From contig JANXAZ010000018.1 in assembly GCA_025062095.1 (NCBI GenBank), positions 1-32,182 of the forward strand: 32,182 bases of DNA, read 5' to 3'. Positions 19,095-26,019 of the stretch are shown here, one piece after another. The notes beneath the pieces are model-generated. The model was not told where the DNA came from, searched no databases, and saw only the letters and a program-made list of their open reading frames with translations. This DNA comes from Geminicoccaceae bacterium (GTDB lineage Bacteria > Pseudomonadota > Alphaproteobacteria > Geminicoccales > Geminicoccaceae). How positions within the stretch are numbered: position 1 is the first letter of the stretch; every line of letters begins with the position of its first letter. The position numbers and the translations under genes were made by a program.

Positions 19095-20453
19095 TCAGCC
19101 GTACATCTGCGCCGGCAGCCACAAGACGAGCTGCGGCCAGGTGAAGACGATGGCGACGGCCAAAAGCTGCAGGAGGACGAACGGAACGATTCCCTGGTAT
19201 ATGTCTACGGTCGTGATCGCGCGCGGGGCGACCCCTCGCAAGTAAAAGAGCGAGAAGCCGACCGGCGGCGTCAGGAACGAGGTCTGCAAACACAGGGCGA
19301 AGAGCACGACGAACCAGGTCGGCTCGAAGCCGAGGTCTTTGACCACGGGGGCCACGAGCGGCAGGATGATGAGCGTGATCTCGAGCCAGTCGAGGAAGAA
19401 GCCGGCGACGAAGGCGATGAAGAGGATGAAGATCACGATCCCGTTGGGATCGAAGGGCAGGGCCTTGAGCGTCTCGGCGACGAGCTCGTCGCCGCCCAAG
19501 GAGCGCATGACGAGAGCGAAGGCGGTAGCACCCAAGAAGATGCCGAAGATGAAAGCGGTGGTGAGCGCGGTTTCGCGGCACACCTCGCGCAAGGTGTTCC
19601 AGTCGAGCTTGCGGTTGGCGGCGGCGAGGAGCGTGGCGCCGAAGGCGCCCAACCCCGAGGCCTCGGTGGGCGTGGCGATGCCGAAGAAGATCGAGCCCAA
19701 GACGGCGAGGATCAAAAAGAGCGGAGCGAGCACGGAAAGAAGGGTGTCGCGCAAGAGCTTCCAGCTCACCGGCTCGAGGTTCGGCGGATGGGGCGCCGCT
19801 TTCGGAAAAAAGACACCCACGAGGATCACGTAGACGAGATACAGACTGCCCAAGAGCAGTCCGGGAAAGACGGCACCCATGAAGAGATCGCCGACCGAGA
19901 GGCCGAGCTGGTCGGCCATGATCACGAGCATGATCGAGGGCGGGATGAGGATGCCGAGCGTGCCCGAGGCGGCGACGACCCCGCTCGCCAGTTTCTTCGA
20001 ATAGCCCTGCTCGAGCATCACCGGGAGCGACAGCACCGACAAGAGCACGACCGAGGCGCCGACGATCCCGGTCGAGGCGGCCAGGAGAATGCCGATCAGC
20101 ACCACGGTGAGGGCGAGGCCGCCGTTGAAGCGACCGAAGAGGGCGACGAAGTTGCGCATCATGCTCTCCGCCACCCCCGAGCGGTCGAGCATGAGGCCCA
20201 TGAAGACGAAATTGGGCAGCGACACGAGCACCCAGTTCTCCATCTGGTTCCAGATGCGATCGACGATGATCGCGAACCGGGACCAGTCGGAGAGCATGAA
20301 GGTGTCGATATCGAAATAATGGGAAAGGGTGATCCCCACCCAAGCGAAAATCAGGCTCAACCCGCCCAGAAGCCAAGCGACCGGGAAACCGGTGAAGAGC
20401 GAGAGTATGAAGGAGCTCAGGAAGACGAGAACGATGATCTCGTAAGCCGGCAT
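19095..20453 (-). CDS. TRAP transporter 1, large membrane subunit (DctM/FcbT3 type)
   Basis: The protein has 452 residues with about 11-12 membrane helices. The ATG at 20453-20451 follows GGAAG. Family signatures are SLPNFVFMGLMLDRSG (about 80-95), SGTLGILIPPSIMLVIMADQ (about 163-182) and the C-terminal mirror TSFLTPPVGFSLFYLRG. The segment WNQMENWVLVSLPNF places it with the mannitol/chloroaromatic-type (FcbT3) branch. It forms the sodium-driven transport channel with the small subunit and receives substrate from the periplasmic binding protein encoded upstream. It is the last gene of the operon P-Q-M. Confidence 0.95.
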   Translation of the reverse strand: MPAYEIIVLVFLSSFILSLFTGFPVAWLLGGLSLIFAWVGITLSHYFDIDTFMLSDWSRFAIIVDRIWNQMENWVLVSLPNFVFMGLMLDRSGVAESMMRNFVALFGRFNGGLALTVVLIGILLAASTGIVGASVVLLSVLSLPVMLEQGYSKKLASGVVAASGTLGILIPPSIMLVIMADQLGLSVGDLFMGAVFPGLLLGSLYLVYVILVGVFFPKAAPHPPNLEPVSWKLLRDTLLSVLAPLFLILAVLGSIFFGIATPTEASGLGAFGATLLAAANRKLDWNTLREVCRETALTTAFIFGIFLGATAFALVMRSLGGDELVAETLKALPFDPNGIVIFILFIAFVAGFFLDWLEITLIILPLVAPVVKDLGFEPTWFVVLFALCLQTSFLTPPVGFSLFYLRGVAPRAITTVDIYQGIVPFVLLQLLAVAIVFTWPQLVLWLPAQMYG

Positions 20454-20484
20454 GGCTGATCTTCCGCTCTCGCGCGCATGCGCC

Positions 20485-21102
20485 TCACGATGCCGGCTTG
20501 GGTCTCGGCCAGCCGAAGAGCAACGCCGTGACCCGCAACAGGCGCGCGATCGCGGCCAAGAGGAGCAACGTGAAGCCCCAGAGGATGAAAGACTTGGGGA
20601 TCCAGCGATAGGGCAAGCCGCCGGGGGCGGCGGAGACCTCGTTGAACCGCCAAGAGCGCGAGACGAAGGGGATCGCTTCCAGGATCACGGCGAGGCAGAA
20701 AGGGATGAGCAAGAAGAGAAGGCCCGCGAGCTCGATCCAGCCGCGGGAGCGTACCGGCAGTCGCTCGGCGAAGACGTCGATGCGCACGTGGCGGTCGGTG
20801 ACGAGAGCATAAGAGAGGGCGAGGATGAAGCCGATTCCGTAGATGTGCCACTGGATTTCTTCGAGCATGATCGAGCCGCGGCCGAACACGTAGCGCAGCG
20901 TGACCGCGAAGACCACGACGAGGACGAGGAGTGCCCACGAGAAGGCTGCGACGTAGTTCACCTTGAGGACCACCGCCTCGAGGAGATCGGACGGTGCCGT
21001 GCGCGGCAGGCGGAAGTGATGCCGTTCTTCGAGTTCGTGGAAGACCTTCTCGGCGACCTCGCCGACGGTCTCGCCGGGACCGCGCTCGACGACGACGCTC
21101 AT
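20485..21102 (-). CDS. TRAP transporter 1, small membrane subunit (DctQ/FcbT2 type)
   Basis: The protein has 205 residues with four membrane helices (about 50-70, 83-103, 120-142 and 173-195). The ATG at 21102-21100 follows AAGGAAGG. A cytoplasmic N-terminus of about 40 residues precedes the first helix and is longer than in many DctQ proteins. VTDRHVRIDVFAERL (about 101-115) is the typical DctQ loop after helix 2. It binds DctM and is needed for transport. It starts 71 bases after dctP, separated by a strong hairpin, and 31 bases before dctM. Confidence 0.92.
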   Translation of the reverse strand: MSVVVERGPGETVGEVAEKVFHELEERHHFRLPRTAPSDLLEAVVLKVNYVAAFSWALLVLVVVFAVTLRYVFGRGSIMLEEIQWHIYGIGFILALSYALVTDRHVRIDVFAERLPVRSRGWIELAGLLFLLIPFCLAVILEAIPFVSRSWRFNEVSAAPGGLPYRWIPKSFILWGFTLLLLAAIARLLRVTALLFGWPRPKPAS

Positions 21103-21132
21103 GGTTCGCCTTCCTTCCCCTCCTCACGGAAA

Positions 21133-21153
21133 GGGCCGCCCCGGGGGCGGCCC
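21133..21153 (-). terminator. strong hairpin between dctP and dctQ of TRAP 1
   Basis: A perfect 8-bp stem (GGGCCGCC / GGCGGCCC) closes a 5-base loop whose bases can extend the pairing. On the minus strand it is followed by CTTTCC, a very short T-run. It lies inside the operon, after the binding-protein gene and before the membrane genes. This is the place where a partial terminator or an RNA-stabilising end would let the binding protein be made in excess. Confidence 0.6.
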
Positions 21154-21173
21154 CGCGCTCCGATCCTTCGCCT

Positions 21174-22241
21174 TCAGCCCCGCGGCAGAAAGCCGTAGCG
21201 CCGCCAGGGCGCGTGCGCCGCCTGGAAGGCGAGCTGGGACTCGTAGACCTTCTTGAAGAGCGGATCTTTGGCCGCCTCTTCGGCCATCACCTCCTGGGTG
21301 GCCTTTTTGAAGGCGGCGATCATCTCGTCGCTCCAGCGCACGAGCTTCACGCCTTCTTTCTCGAACTTGCTGAGCATCGGGCCCTGAAGCGCCTCGGCCT
21401 TGGCGATGGCCATGGTCACCGCCGCGGTGCAGGTGGTCTCGATGAGCGCCTGCGTTTCTTTGTTGATCGAATCCCAGGCCTTCTTGTTCACGTAGAGATA
21501 CTGGCTGGTCGAGGGCTGATGCCAACCCGGCAGATAATAATATTTGGCGACCTTGTAGAAGCCGAGCTGCTCGTCGACCGTGGGCAGGGAGAACTCGGTG
21601 CCGTCGAGCACGCCCTTTTCCAGCGCCTGGAAGAGCTCGCCACCGGGCAAGAGGGTCACCGAGGCGCCGAGCTTCTGCCAGATTTTGCCGCCCAGGCCGG
21701 CGGCGCGGAACTTGAGGCCTCTGATCTGGTCGAGAGAGGTGATCTCGAAGCGGAACCAGCCCGAGGCTTCCGGGCTGATCGTGCCGCAGAAGATCGGATG
21801 CACGTTGTGCGGGCGATAGACTTCGTGCAGGAGCTCCTTGCCGCCGCCGAAATAGAACCAGGCGGCGTATTCCCAGGGCTCCATGCCGAAGGGGACCGCA
21901 CCGAAGAGCGCCGAGGCCGGCACCTTGCCGATCTCGTAGCCCATCCAGGTGTAGCCGGCTTCGATCTTCCCTTCGCTCACCGCGTCGAACACGCCCAGTG
22001 CGGGGATCATCTTACCCGGCTCGAAGATCCGCAGATCGACCTTGCCGCCGCTGACCGCGCGCAGCTGATCGGCCACCCAGGGCATGGTGTCGCCGAGCGC
22101 GGTGAGGTTCGAGGCGAAGGCCATCGGCACCGGCCAGCGGACGCGGTCGAAATCGGCCGCGGCCGGACCGGATGCGAGCATCACCGAACACGCGAGAAGG
22201 CCTCCGGCGAGACCCGAGGCGAGTGCGTGGTACCGCGGCAT
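21174..22241 (-). CDS. TRAP transporter 1, periplasmic substrate-binding protein (TakP-like)
   Basis: The protein has 355 residues. Two ATGs lie close together (22247 and 22241); I chose 22241 because GGGAGG is then about 7 bases away. The signal peptide covers about residues 1-30 (LASGLAGGLLACSVMLASGPAAA). The segment FRAAGLGGKIWQKLGAS with the following TLLPGGELFQALEKGVLDG, and YYYLPGWHQPS, match the branch containing the 2-oxo-acid binding protein TakP and the FcbT1 proteins. This contrasts with the dicarboxylate-type DctP of TRAP 2. A 2-oxo acid or similar monocarboxylate is therefore a fair guess for the ligand, by family only. First gene of the operon, with a probable promoter at 22273-22301. 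Confidence 0.93.
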   Translation of the reverse strand: MPRYHALASGLAGGLLACSVMLASGPAAADFDRVRWPVPMAFASNLTALGDTMPWVADQLRAVSGGKVDLRIFEPGKMIPALGVFDAVSEGKIEAGYTWMGYEIGKVPASALFGAVPFGMEPWEYAAWFYFGGGKELLHEVYRPHNVHPIFCGTISPEASGWFRFEITSLDQIRGLKFRAAGLGGKIWQKLGASVTLLPGGELFQALEKGVLDGTEFSLPTVDEQLGFYKVAKYYYLPGWHQPSTSQYLYVNKKAWDSINKETQALIETTCTAAVTMAIAKAEALQGPMLSKFEKEGVKLVRWSDEMIAAFKKATQEVMAEEAAKDPLFKKVYESQLAFQAAHAPWRRYGFLPRG

Positions 22242-23210: not shown

Positions 23211-23239
23211 TTGCGCGTTCTCGTGAAGGAGCTGATAAA
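23211..23239 (+). promoter_or_regulatory. possible promoter of the propeller-GTPase unit
   Basis: TTGCGC (23211-23216) and GATAAA (23234-23239) are 17 bases apart, and the stretch 23231-23252 is unusually A/T-rich for this window. The match to consensus is modest. The start codon lies about 30 bases downstream. The rest of the gap 23000-23269 shows no gene I can support. Confidence 0.3.
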
Positions 23240-23269
23240 GAATTTCCGAATGTTCGTGGGGAGGCGGTC

Positions 23270-24559
23270 GTGATCGAGGAATCGAATGTTATATCGTTGC
23301 GTCTTCGGCGCCGGCAGGCGTTGCTCGCCGCCGGTTTCGTCTCGGTGGCGCTCGCGGCACCCCGGCTCGCCCCGGCGCGGAGCGGCGCGGGAGCGGTCTT
23401 CGCGCTGCGGGGCGACGGCAAGGTCGTGGTCATCGATCCCGCGACCGACACGATCCTCCGGGTTCTCGAGACCGGCGGAAAAGGCGGCACGCTCGGATCG
23501 CTTTCCGCCGACGGGCGGCTGCTCTTCGTCGCCAACAACGCCGCCGGGCAGCGCACGGTCACGGTGATCGACGCCGAGAAGCTCGACATCAGAGCCCAGC
23601 TCGAAACCGGCAACCGACCCAAGCACCCGGTCTTGTCGCCCGACGGCACGACGATCGCGCTCAATCATTCCGGGCTCGACGAGGGCAAACTGCGGATCAC
23701 CTTCATCGACGCGGCGACGGCGCGACCGATGCGCACCGTCGAACTTCCCGTCGACAATACGGCGGGTCAGAGCGATGCGAGCATGCACGGGGGTTGGTCC
23801 CCGGACGGGCGCGTGTTCGCGGTCGGATCTTATTTCGACAACGCGATCTTCTTCGTGCGGCCCGACGGCGGGTTCGCGAAGGTCGCATCCGTCGGCAACC
23901 CGCACTACTTCGACTGGTTCGGCCGCGAGATGTGGGCGGTGATCGAGGCACCCGAGCCGAAGGGCGAAGGAGCATCGGCGCGGATCGAGATCTGGAACCT
24001 CGCGGACCTTTCCGCCCCGAGGCTCGAAGCCGCTCTCGCCATGGGTCGCACGGCCAAGGAGAGCGAGCTCCTCGACCGCATCGAGGGCCATCACGGTGTC
24101 TTCACCCAAGACGGGCGCTTCTACGTCGTCTGCAACCGGGGAAGCGGCAAGGCGCTCGAGGGGAGCTCGGTGGAGATCTGGGAGCGCGCGAGCCGCAGCC
24201 GCGTCGCGGCCGTCGATTCCGGTGTCGCGGGGGTCGGCCACGCCTATCTCGCTCCCGACGGTCGCTACGCCGTGCTCACGCAGTACAACGACACCAAGCT
24301 CCCGATCCTCGACCTCGCCGAGCGGAAGATCGTAGCCGTGATCGATGCCGGCCAAGGCGGACATCTGGGGCACGCGGCCTTCGCGAACGGCAAGATGTAC
24401 GTCAACAACCGCAAGGCCGACGAAGTCCTGGTGATCGATCCCGCTCGCTGGGCGATCGTCAAACGCATCCAGACCGCGGCCGGCGGTCAAGCGCAGGCCA
24501 TGGTGCTGGCCGCACCTTACGGTGTCTTCGAGCGGGTCGTGAATCCGTACCTCGCGTGA
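23270..24559 (+). CDS. Tat-exported YVTN-type beta-propeller with a histidine at matching places in six blades
   Basis: The protein has 429 residues. I chose the GTG at 23270 because GGGGAGG stands 5 bases before it; the longer open frame upstream has no similarity. The N-terminus has a twin-arginine-like signal: LRLRRRQALLAAGF (10-23), a hydrophobic stretch, and probable cleavage near 36-40. The rest is a seven-bladed propeller of YVTN type, with blade turns SADG, SPDG, SPDG, TQDG and APDG. Six blades carry a His just before the turn: H119, H173, H212, H275, H324 and H368. In four of them the His-to-Asp distance is exactly six. Blade 1 has L75 instead; H274 and H365 are extra. Such a ring would face the central channel and could hold a metal. 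No known family is assigned. The overlapping downstream gene is a metal-chaperone-type GTPase. Confidence 0.85.
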   Translation: MIEESNVISLRLRRRQALLAAGFVSVALAAPRLAPARSGAGAVFALRGDGKVVVIDPATDTILRVLETGGKGGTLGSLSADGRLLFVANNAAGQRTVTVIDAEKLDIRAQLETGNRPKHPVLSPDGTTIALNHSGLDEGKLRITFIDAATARPMRTVELPVDNTAGQSDASMHGGWSPDGRVFAVGSYFDNAIFFVRPDGGFAKVASVGNPHYFDWFGREMWAVIEAPEPKGEGASARIEIWNLADLSAPRLEAALAMGRTAKESELLDRIEGHHGVFTQDGRFYVVCNRGSGKALEGSSVEIWERASRSRVAAVDSGVAGVGHAYLAPDGRYAVLTQYNDTKLPILDLAERKIVAVIDAGQGGHLGHAAFANGKMYVNNRKADEVLVIDPARWAIVKRIQTAAGGQAQAMVLAAPYGVFERVVNPYLA

Positions 24560-26019
24560 GGCGAGAAACCGCCGCCCCCGATGCGCTCTTGCTCACCGGG
24601 CCGCTGGGCGCCGGCAAGACGACGCTCCTCGAGCGCTCGCTTCTGCCGGCGCTCGCCGGCCGGCGCGTCGCGGTGTTGGTCAACGACGCCGGCCCCGTCC
24701 CCTTCGACTCGCTCCTCCTGAGCGATACGCCGATCCCGATCCTGGGGGTCGCGGGCGGTTGCTTCTGTTGCCGGGCGGGCGGGCGGCTCCTCGAGGCCCT
24801 GGCCGAGATCCGCGATCGCCTCGCACCCGATCTCGTCGTCCTCGAGGGCTCGGGTCTTTCGCCGCCGGGACCGCTCGCGCGGGCGCTGCAGGAGGAAGGC
24901 TACCGGTTGCTCGGAACGATCGCGGTGATCGCGGCGGCCGGGCTCGAGCGCGCCCTCCGCGATCCGCTCGTGCGCGCCCAACTCGCGGCTTCGGGGCTCG
25001 TCGTGCTGACCGGTGCGGATCGGCTCGACCGCGCGGCCTTCGAGAAAGCCCGCTCCGCTCTGCAGCGCCTCGCGCGCGCGCCCGTTCTCCCCGCCTTCGA
25101 GGGGGTCGTACGCGGTCCTGTCGCGGTACTCCTCGCCCCGGGAACGGCGGGTGCGCCCTCGGGCTCCGGTGTGTTGCACGCGGGCGTGCGCAGCGCGACG
25201 CTCCGGCTCGCGGGCCTGCCCCGTCGCGCAGAGCTGTGCGCTTGGCTCGCCCGCGCACCGAAAAGGGTGCTGCGGGTCAAAGGAATCGTCCAATGTGCCG
25301 AGCACTGCGCGCCCCTCGCTCTCAACCACGCCCTCGGCGAAACCGACCTCAGGCCGGTTGCCGCGGCTTCCGAGTGGTCGGAGCTGTGGGTCGCGCATAC
25401 GGACGAAGAGCCGCGCGCCTGGTTCGCGCGTCTCCCCCGAGGCTGCGCACCGGACGACTGGCAGGAGCTCGAGGCCACGCTCGCGCCTCTCGGCGAGGTC
25501 GACGCGCGGACGGATGCGGCTTTCGCGGACGGCCGGCGCACCGATCCCCTCGAGGCGGCGCAACTGCTGCTCGATCGGCTCGCGGCCGCGACACGGCCGG
25601 TGCTCGTGACCTCCGCGGCTCGACGGGCGGAGACCGCGGCGCGCTGGCGGGGGGCGATCGCCGAGATCGCGGTCGTACCCGATGCCCGGGCGCGGACCAT
25701 CGATGCGCTGGTCGCGCGTCTTTCCGGCGACGTTCTTCTGTTCGCGGGTCTGCCGGATGCACTCGCCGAGCGCGCGGCCGCACGCCGCGCCGATCTCTGT
25801 GCGCTGCATCTCGCGCAACGCTTCGCTCTGCCGGGGCCGAGCGTCTCGCTGCGCATCGATCCCGAACGCGAAGCGACGCTCGCGGCGTTGGCCCGCCGCG
25901 AGCGGCCCCGGAGCGATCCGGTCGTCTCAGCGGCCGATGAGCCGCGGCAGTCCCAGGCTCAGGACCGGAAAGAGAAGGAGGAGCACGATCCGAACACCCT
26001 CGCTCGCCAGGAACGGTAA
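24556..26019 (+). CDS. COG0523/G3E-family GTPase (CobW-like, putative metallochaperone)
   Basis: The protein has 487 residues. The GTG at 24556 overlaps the propeller stop in a GTGA junction, so translation is coupled. Walker A is GPLGAGKT (15-22). The family metal motif CxCC is CFCC (69-72). LEGSGLSPP (96-104) corresponds to the switch region. The guanine motif is unusual: LTGADRLD (151-158) has G where N/TKxD has Lys. A CobW C-terminal-like part (about 205-290) contains VLRVKGIVQC and a C247-H250-C251-H258 cluster that could bind metal. About 190 further residues are not recognised. COG0523 proteins deliver Zn, Co or Fe to client enzymes. The last 93 bases are antisense to the end of the TRAP 2 dctM gene; no earlier stop codon exists. 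Confidence 0.85.
   Translation: MRRETAAPDALLLTGPLGAGKTTLLERSLLPALAGRRVAVLVNDAGPVPFDSLLLSDTPIPILGVAGGCFCCRAGGRLLEALAEIRDRLAPDLVVLEGSGLSPPGPLARALQEEGYRLLGTIAVIAAAGLERALRDPLVRAQLAASGLVVLTGADRLDRAAFEKARSALQRLARAPVLPAFEGVVRGPVAVLLAPGTAGAPSGSGVLHAGVRSATLRLAGLPRRAELCAWLARAPKRVLRVKGIVQCAEHCAPLALNHALGETDLRPVAAASEWSELWVAHTDEEPRAWFARLPRGCAPDDWQELEATLAPLGEVDARTDAAFADGRRTDPLEAAQLLLDRLAAATRPVLVTSAARRAETAARWRGAIAEIAVVPDARARTIDALVARLSGDVLLFAGLPDALAERAAARRADLCALHLAQRFALPGPSVSLRIDPEREATLAALARRERPRSDPVVSAADEPRQSQAQDRKEKEEHDPNTLARQER

Follow-up and report, generated by a model that had tools for sequence, protein, structure and literature searches.

A histidine-ring beta-propeller paired with a CobW GTPase in a Geminicoccaceae bacterium: a probable metal protein not described before, with a possible role in sulfur metabolism

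Nitrous oxide reductase (NosZ) is a propeller with a histidine-held metal site, and the heme-d1 propellers NirN, NirF and NirS have an eight-bladed fold. GTPases of the G3E family are linked to zinc, cobalt, nickel and iron rather than to copper, and we know of no established client for most COG0523 proteins. AztD (PDB 6N01) is an eight-bladed periplasmic propeller that carries zinc on three pore histidines, and its gene often has a CobW gene and a ZnuA-type gene as neighbours (PMC6689063, in part). For COG0523 subfamily 5, Haas et al. 2009 (PMC2770081, in part) report gene clusters that include WD40 propellers and znuABC, an arrangement that resembles the locus described here in joining a GTPase to a beta-propeller; zinc transport genes belong to those clusters, and the excerpt of the source does not state that the propeller family is the same. 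Thiocyanate dehydrogenase (TcDH; PDB 5F75, 8Q9X) is, like the protein described here, a propeller of sulfur-oxidising hosts with a Tat-type route to the periplasm and a His-His pair (PMC6504805, PMC5328954, both in part). Its active site consists of K103, H135, H136, Q156, H206, E288, D314, H381, H437, H482, H528, D529 and R544 (PMC6504805, in part), it has seven blades and three coppers (PMC9456337, in part), and genes of a sigma54 two-component system lie in its operons alongside those of ABC transporters (PMC5744179, PMC5328954, both in part). The name L-NosZ is explained in PMC13122619 and the ligands of MtoX are treated in PMC5739008 (both in part).

The window analysed here is a stretch of 32,182 nucleotides (contig JANXAZ010000018.1 of the Geminicoccaceae assembly GCA_025062095.1), in which a single ORF of 429 amino acids encodes the propeller protein, a member of what we call family I (Table 1). 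Its GTG start is backed by three of the four congeners: an ATG or GTG codon occupies this position in each of them, with a GGAGG site at equal spacing, and the congener locus L009 has ATA instead. A short stretch, GCTGATARA, stands just 5' of the ribosome-binding site in the window and in L008, L009, L010 and L016 (five genomes, one genus). The sequence-only reading had called the protein Tat-exported; the motif on which this depends, a twin arginine followed by a hydrophobic stretch, is present, with the arginine pair occurring in none of the four family-II rows, and the export step itself is a prediction from that motif.

Table 1. Features in and around the propeller gene; positions are those of the 32,182-nucleotide window.
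Feature	Position	Strand	Basis or remark
TRAP-type transporter operon	19095-22241	-	by eye
OmpA-type lipoprotein gene, divergent from the propeller gene	22340 to about 23000	-	by eye
GCTGATARA stretch	about 23229-23240		
Ribosome-binding site GGGGAGG	23258..23264	+	read from the sequence; GGAGG equally spaced in congeners L005, L006, L007
Propeller gene, family I: GTG start, eight-bladed, histidine ring, Tat-type signal	23270..24559	+	ORF, congeners, AlphaFold, alignment
Tat-type signal, residues 1 to about 39, RR = R14-R15	23270..23386	+	RR in 14/14 family-I rows; N-terminus of low pLDDT
Ring His119	23624..23626	+	18/18 invariant; inner strand 117-122
His133	23666..23668	+	18/18 invariant; overlooked by the sequence-only reading
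Ring His173	23786..23788	+	18/18 invariant; directly ahead of inner strand 174-176
Ring His212	23903..23905	+	18/18 invariant; inner strand 211-217
His274-His275 pair (EGHHG), ring member His275	24089..24094	+	both 18/18 invariant; directly ahead of inner strand 276-278
Ring His324	24239..24241	+	18/18 invariant; inner strand 322-327
His365	24362..24364	+	His in all family-I rows (14/14), Arg in all family-II rows (4/4)
Ring His368	24371..24373	+	18/18 invariant; directly ahead of inner strand 369-372
CobW/COG0523 (G3E) GTPase	24556..26019	+	PF02492 3.5e-29, PF07683 2e-05, both above cut-off
CxCC motif of CobW (C69, C71, C72)	24760..24771	+	invariant in 14/14 rows
TRAP-type transporter operon	25927 to about 28700	-	by eye

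By profile, the propeller belongs to no NCBIfam family other than the YVTN repeat, whose model is the only one above its cut-off; the best family models are TIGR03866 (56 bits, cut-off 287) and L-NosZ (NF052460, 43 bits, cut-off 700). Four Pfam models, DUF5074, Cytochrom_D1, YNCE and PD40, pass their cut-offs, each over a short stretch, and we take all these Pfam and NCBIfam matches as repeat-level. For Cytochrom_D1 (PF02239; 39.1 bits at a gathering cut-off of 25.5, residues 43-129 against profile positions 8-91 of 368) this follows from the fact that DUF5074, YNCE and PD40 pass as well. Weak NCBIfam matches to L-NosZ were found in all 18 family members (best E 2e-18), to MtoX in three of 18 (9e-6) and to Sec-dependent NosZ in one of 18 (8e-4). 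Membership of L-NosZ was rejected at a score so far under the cut-off, and no cupredoxin domain appeared in the Pfam scan, which bears out the earlier statement that the protein is not NosZ.

The AlphaFold2 model of the window propeller (12 rows; mean pLDDT 86.7, pTM 0.84) has eight inner strands, 75-78, 117-122, 174-176, 211-217, 276-278, 322-327, 369-372 and 409-413, and therefore reads as eight-bladed. A second model, built for a family-II protein from 15 rows (pLDDT 87.6, pTM 0.86), likewise reads eight-bladed, and the seven blades of the sequence-only reading are corrected to eight. In a Foldseek search with the window model, 1L0Q, NirN, NirF, hydrazine synthase beta and many WD40 proteins were among the best rows; a second structure alignment placed a designed propeller and WD40 proteins on top (Z 34) and gave cd1 nitrite reductase at Z 33 over 347 residues (3.2 A). 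NosZ and SBP56 structures were absent among the matches listed in the fold searches, an absence that carries no meaning.

The window propeller contains nine histidines (119, 133, 173, 212, 274, 275, 324, 365 and 368), all of which are invariant across 14 family-I rows, and eight of which (all but H365) are invariant across 18 rows that include four family-II sequences with 33-35% identity to the window protein. Given nine histidines overall, finding eight in the 54 invariant columns of 429 has a hypergeometric p of 3.2e-7. Six of them, His119, 173, 212, 275, 324 and 368, lie at or next to the start of an inner strand in six consecutive blades of the AlphaFold model, and their family-II counterparts H113, H166, H206, H261, H310 and H353 lie at or near inner-strand starts in the second model; a reading of the register puts Leu75 and Gln409 at the ring position of the remaining two blades. 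The register and pseudo-symmetry of the model suggest that the six histidines form a ring. The sequence-only reading had placed the same six at equivalent positions of the blades, four of them six residues ahead of the turn Asp (these are H119, H173, H275 and H324), and had named H274 and H365 as additional; all of this is confirmed. It had also looked to homologues, where free variation of the histidines would speak against a metal site, and the six ring positions turned out to be free of any variation in the 18 rows. Because the histidines are invariant down to 33% identity, a metal site in the propeller channel is very likely, as judged from alignment and model; the earlier proposal of a metal in the channel gains this strength from the six conserved histidines at inner-strand starts together with a partner from a metal-chaperone family of GTPases.

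This partner is encoded directly downstream, with a start codon overlapping the propeller stop by 4 bases. Its P-loop, like its CxCC motif, is invariant in 14 rows, and its score of 68 bits against the cobalamin-synthesis CobW model TIGR02475 (cut-off 332) places it outside that family. Wherever the flanking sequence suffices, at 14 loci from 14 different genomes, a long CobW adjoins the propeller, in both gene orders (the window, L008, L009, L010, L011, L012, L013, L014, L015, L016, L017, L042, L043 and L044); the order is reversed in L014, where cobW precedes the propeller, and L018, which ends at a contig edge, stands outside the 14. In Aquificaceae, six of 64 genomes contain the long CobW (552-586 bits), always beside the propeller. 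Another 42 contained shorter CobW matches only, of which the best scores 213 bits and covers positions 3-277 of 440 and no listed match extends past position 294, and 16 had no CobW at E<=1e-15, including G418, whose propeller is cut by a contig end. The association of CobW and propeller is significant in this family (6/6 versus 0/57, G418 left out; Fisher p = 1.5e-8), also when G418 is scored as lacking the gene (p = 9e-8). Since the query alignment included the six positives, their scores arise by construction, and the absence from the 57 genomes is the informative part. Taken as one statement, a metal-binding propeller with a dedicated CobW is highly probable in our judgement.

By eye, two TRAP-type transporter operons, each with a large permease, a small permease and a binding protein, flank the propeller-cobW pair in the window, and both or parts of them also occur in the congener loci L008, L009 and L016. 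The divergent OmpA-type lipoprotein gene has counterparts at the equal place in L009, L010 and L016.

The propeller was found in five genomes among 96 relatives (E<=1e-20), namely the own genome and four of its five congeners, and in two of 385 genomes of the class (E<=1e-40), both within the genus. A contig scan with two exact peptide patterns, by which distant members are missed, yielded 11 loci: the four congeners again and seven new loci at 49-54% identity. The latter are L012, L017 and L018 (titled Aquificaceae), L011 (titled Acidobacteria), L013 (a Pseudomonadota MAG), L014 (Thioalkalivibrio sulfidiphilus ALJ17) and L015 (a Chromatiaceae MAG). The MAG of L011 (RFFP01000006.1) was grouped with an Aquificaceae genome, in the family of L017, so that its Acidobacteria title is probably wrong. 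In the family of L017 (Aquificaceae), the propeller occurs in seven of 64 genomes. Five of the 47 genomes in the family of L014 (Thioalkalivibrio) carry it, one with a family-I protein (L014) and four with family-II proteins, which are 69-81% identical to L064. No propeller match was obtained in a plasmid search at E<=1e-8. The two families differ in their context: family I combines the RR motif (14 of 14 rows) with an adjoining CobW, whereas family II has no RR motif (0 of 4) and no CobW was noticed alongside it.

The sequence-only reading had suggested a metalloenzyme or a metal sensor; here the gene context offers two leads, one to sulfur oxidation and one to metal import. We propose that the propeller is probably an undescribed metal protein and perhaps one of sulfur metabolism. 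As the first gene of a two-gene unit, it would encode a periplasmic metalloprotein with one or more metal ions bound to the histidine ring inside the channel; the metal would be inserted in the cytoplasm by the CobW GTPase, and the Tat system would then export the folded, loaded propeller. Its periplasmic task would be to help oxidise reduced sulfur compounds, probably either as a metalloenzyme or as a metal-dependent partner of the Sox/flavocytochrome system. Family II, with no RR, no adjacent CobW and a ZrgA-type importer at the one locus tested with Pfam, would fit loading of the metal in the periplasm, and the two families may accordingly represent two loading routes for one kind of site, before and after export, as far as the few lineages tell. 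As a whole, the statement that a CobW-loaded, Tat-exported periplasmic metalloprotein serves sulfur oxidation has, in our estimate, a little less than an even chance of being right.

The sulfur part of this statement has two footings: a single family in which a promoter element is shared with soxX, and a single apparent operon. The operon is that of L013, where the propeller, cobW, a gene for cytochrome c (by eye) and fccB (PF21706 8.6e-44, PF09242) follow each other on one strand, apparently as one transcription unit. The family is that of L014, whose gene order starts with a response regulator (bearing, by eye, a GAFTGA motif) and continues with soxX, soxA, cobW and the propeller; soxX (TIGR04485) and soxA (TIGR04484) are both above cut-off. 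L063 has soxX and soxA (by eye), the family-II propeller, DUF3299, ZrgA, an ABC ATPase and an FtsX permease, behind which a RimK-like gene (by eye) lies as it does in L014. At all five loci of this family a GAFTGA-type regulator, identified by eye, is encoded no more than 3.5 kb from the propeller, and soxXA is at the propeller locus in three of the five (L014, L063 and L065). A PstS-like binding protein, accompanied by a sensor kinase (by eye) and the regulator, is encoded near the propeller at four of these loci (L014:172-1155, L064:10721-11755, L065:4401-5345, L066:4938-5894); the L014 copy matches TIGR02136 weakly (35 bits, cut-off 207). The ligand of this protein may be the inducing signal.

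The promoter element is the palindrome GGGGCA-nnn-TGCCCC, which occurs 5' of the propeller or the cobW-propeller unit at all five loci of the L014 family, with at least one exact site each, and also 5' of soxX in three of three cases (one with a mismatch); no further site with up to one mismatch was found within the five loci. Genome-wide, exact palindromes number 5 in G415, 4 in G492, 3 in G496, 2 in G500 and 5 in G520; of these, 2, 0, 2, 1 and 2, respectively, have a core made up of A and T only. All seven A/T-core sites lie at the propeller locus (G415, G496, G500 and G520), the chance expectation being about 0.05 per genome if a G+C content of 65% is assumed; the core was picked after the local sites had been seen. 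A control with the reversed pattern gave 17, 0, 1, 0 and 1 sites in the same order of genomes, so that the G/C-core sites may well be chance. Sigma54 -24/-12 matches (one mismatch at most) stand 5' of soxX in three of three cases.

Several observations count against a sulfur role. Of the five L014-family loci, four carry family II instead of family I, L013 and L015 lack the palindrome, G492 has it without an A/T-core site, a -24/-12 match lies 5' of the propeller unit in one of five loci only (L064), and the importer genes beside the propeller in L043, L044 and L063 fit metal uptake. By eye, no sulfur genes adjoin the pair in the window, the four congeners or the seven Aquificaceae loci. SoxB was found in 13 of 13 genomes (12 above cut-off), comprising 12 of 12 family-I propeller carriers and G001, which lacks the propeller. 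Among the relatives, SoxB is present in five of five carriers versus 12 of 91 others (p = 1e-4), the five carriers all belonging to one genus, as does G001. In Aquificaceae, 54 of the 64 genomes have SoxB (p = 0.58), so that its presence in seven of seven carriers there says nothing. As proof of a sulfur role this co-occurrence is weak, since SoxB is common in Aquificaceae and the carriers among the relatives are one genus. The propeller was also considered as a replacement of SoxCD, which is thought unlikely because the sox cluster of the own genome (L046) appears to hold soxC and soxD (by eye). Neither "propeller" nor "CobW" occurs in the excerpt of PMC6382920 on the sulfur genes of Thioalkalivibrio, and no paper joining CobW, thiosulfate and propeller was found in the open PMC literature. 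In its fullest form, the proposal would describe a new periplasmic sulfur-oxidation metalloenzyme with a polynuclear centre on six to nine histidines, built up by a dedicated G3E GTPase in the cytoplasm ahead of Tat export and acting with SoxXA and flavocytochrome c, and a sister family whose site would be completed in the periplasm by means of a ZrgA-type ABC system; this we regard as doubtful.

Alternatively, the propeller could be an AztD-like zinc protein, whose channel histidines store zinc or pass it to the binding protein of an ABC importer while CobW handles zinc inside the cell. AztD is the closest functional precedent, and this precedent of a metal-binding, non-enzymatic periplasmic propeller was left unweighed by the sequence-only reading. 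The blade number is shared in both AlphaFold models, AztD stands at rank 48 (6n01_C, E 6e-12) in the Foldseek search with the window model, and the frequent CobW neighbour of AztD and the subfamily-5 gene clusters described above would fit as well. The zinc reading depends on two lineages. One is represented by L044, where a ZnuA-family binding protein (PF01297 1.2e-39; best NCBIfam match AztC, 94 bits at a cut-off of 350) and an ABC-3 permease (AztB as second NCBIfam match) follow 3' of propeller-cobW on the same strand, all AztC and AztB matches being under cut-off, and by L043, with such neighbours by eye on the opposite strand; the propellers of L044 and L043 are 80% identical, and the ZnuA-type context therefore counts as one lineage. 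An outer-membrane-like protein adjoins the ZnuA-type gene and propeller-cobW in these Aquificaceae loci (L044:4234-5652, L043:10858-12189) and in L044 separates propeller-cobW from the importer genes, with no Pfam match at E<=1e-5 for the L044 copy. The other lineage is the family-II locus L063, in which ZrgA (PF10986 4.5e-58), the ABC ATPase and the FtsX permease come after the propeller; the ZrgA system imports zinc in Vibrio (PMC9820375, in part). These neighbours point to zinc, or another metal of zinc/manganese-type importers, as the metal. Zinc precipitates in sulfidic habitats, which would explain a link to sulfur oxidisers.

However, no convincing homology connects the propeller to AztD. 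The window protein is not listed at E<=1 with the AztD profile NF038015 (cut-off 400 bits), one of 18 propeller family members matched it (E 0.0062), and hhalign against AztD gave a probability of 29% and E 0.0006 over 113 columns, results by which AztD membership was ruled out. AztD uses three pore histidines and six stand here at inner-strand starts, a comparison made by position. Site 2 of AztD (His-x2-His-x-Asp) is lacking, since the H365-x2-H368 spacing is present with Ala370 in place of Asp. The nine conserved histidines would exceed the need of a three-histidine site, and the RR signal and, in the L014 family, a promoter palindrome common to soxX set the propeller further apart. A Zur palindrome gave best matches of 7-12 of 15 bases upstream of 21 starts (12 in the AT-rich L042), so that Zur regulation was dropped as a candidate; the TGTTATA near the start of the window propeller lies within the gene and is not kept in congeners. 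No paper joining YVTN, CobW and Zur was found in the open PMC literature. No AztD match was obtained at E<=1e-20 in genome G000. A diverged AztD relative (L061, G004:C16:22-1032; 131 bits, cut-off 400) is encoded in a congener that also bears the histidine-ring propeller, and the two can thus coexist. On balance, the zinc storage or transfer role is possible, if on the unlikely side.

A copper enzyme akin in mechanism to TcDH, NosZ or methanethiol oxidase, with multinuclear histidine-held copper that would oxidise or reduce a small sulfur or nitrogen substrate, is improbable. The seven active-site histidines of TcDH include a His-His pair, as do the nine here; TcDH structures make up eight of ranks 14-27 in the Foldseek search with the family-II model; and the H119 stretch, 77 positions long and the only part that aligns, corresponds to TcDH 440-518, with H119 falling by counting 1-2 residues from TcDH His482. 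The sigma54 system and ABC transporters of TcDH operons and the weak matches to L-NosZ, MtoX and Sec-dependent NosZ would fit as well. However, TcDH has seven blades where eight are seen here, its chain is longer (548 aa), it has copper genes nearby where the window has CobW, and its sequence similarity to the propeller is repeat-level (E 0.0006-0.006). The partner is a G3E GTPase, of a family not known to be tied to copper, and reading through the loci by eye brought no Cop, Cus, Sco or Nos gene to notice. A search of G492 with alignment A3 gave no match attributable to TcDH at E<=1.

It is very improbable that the histidines are structural or bind an organic ligand (a tetrapyrrole, for example) or an anion, with no metal ion of their own, for although the heme-d1 proteins NirN, NirF and NirS are among the close folds and Cytochrom_D1 exceeds its cut-off, that match spans about a fifth of the propeller like the other repeat-level matches, no nir family is among the window's NCBIfam matches and no nir gene was noticed by eye among the neighbours, every histidine is kept in family I, CobW is the partner and metal importers adjoin in two lineages.

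Taken together, the earlier observation of a propeller with a histidine ring is partly confirmed and its interpretation partly supported. If the proposed metalloprotein of sulfur oxidation is real, it would add an unrecognised metal protein to this metabolism, and it would offer a clear example of a COG0523 GTPase dedicated to a single, identifiable client. Family I, with RR and CobW, and family II, with no RR and with ZrgA and an ABC system at one tested locus, would then constitute a natural experiment on the site of metal assembly. Even as a mere zinc chaperone, the propeller would represent a second propeller family for this task, one without convincing profile homology to AztD.
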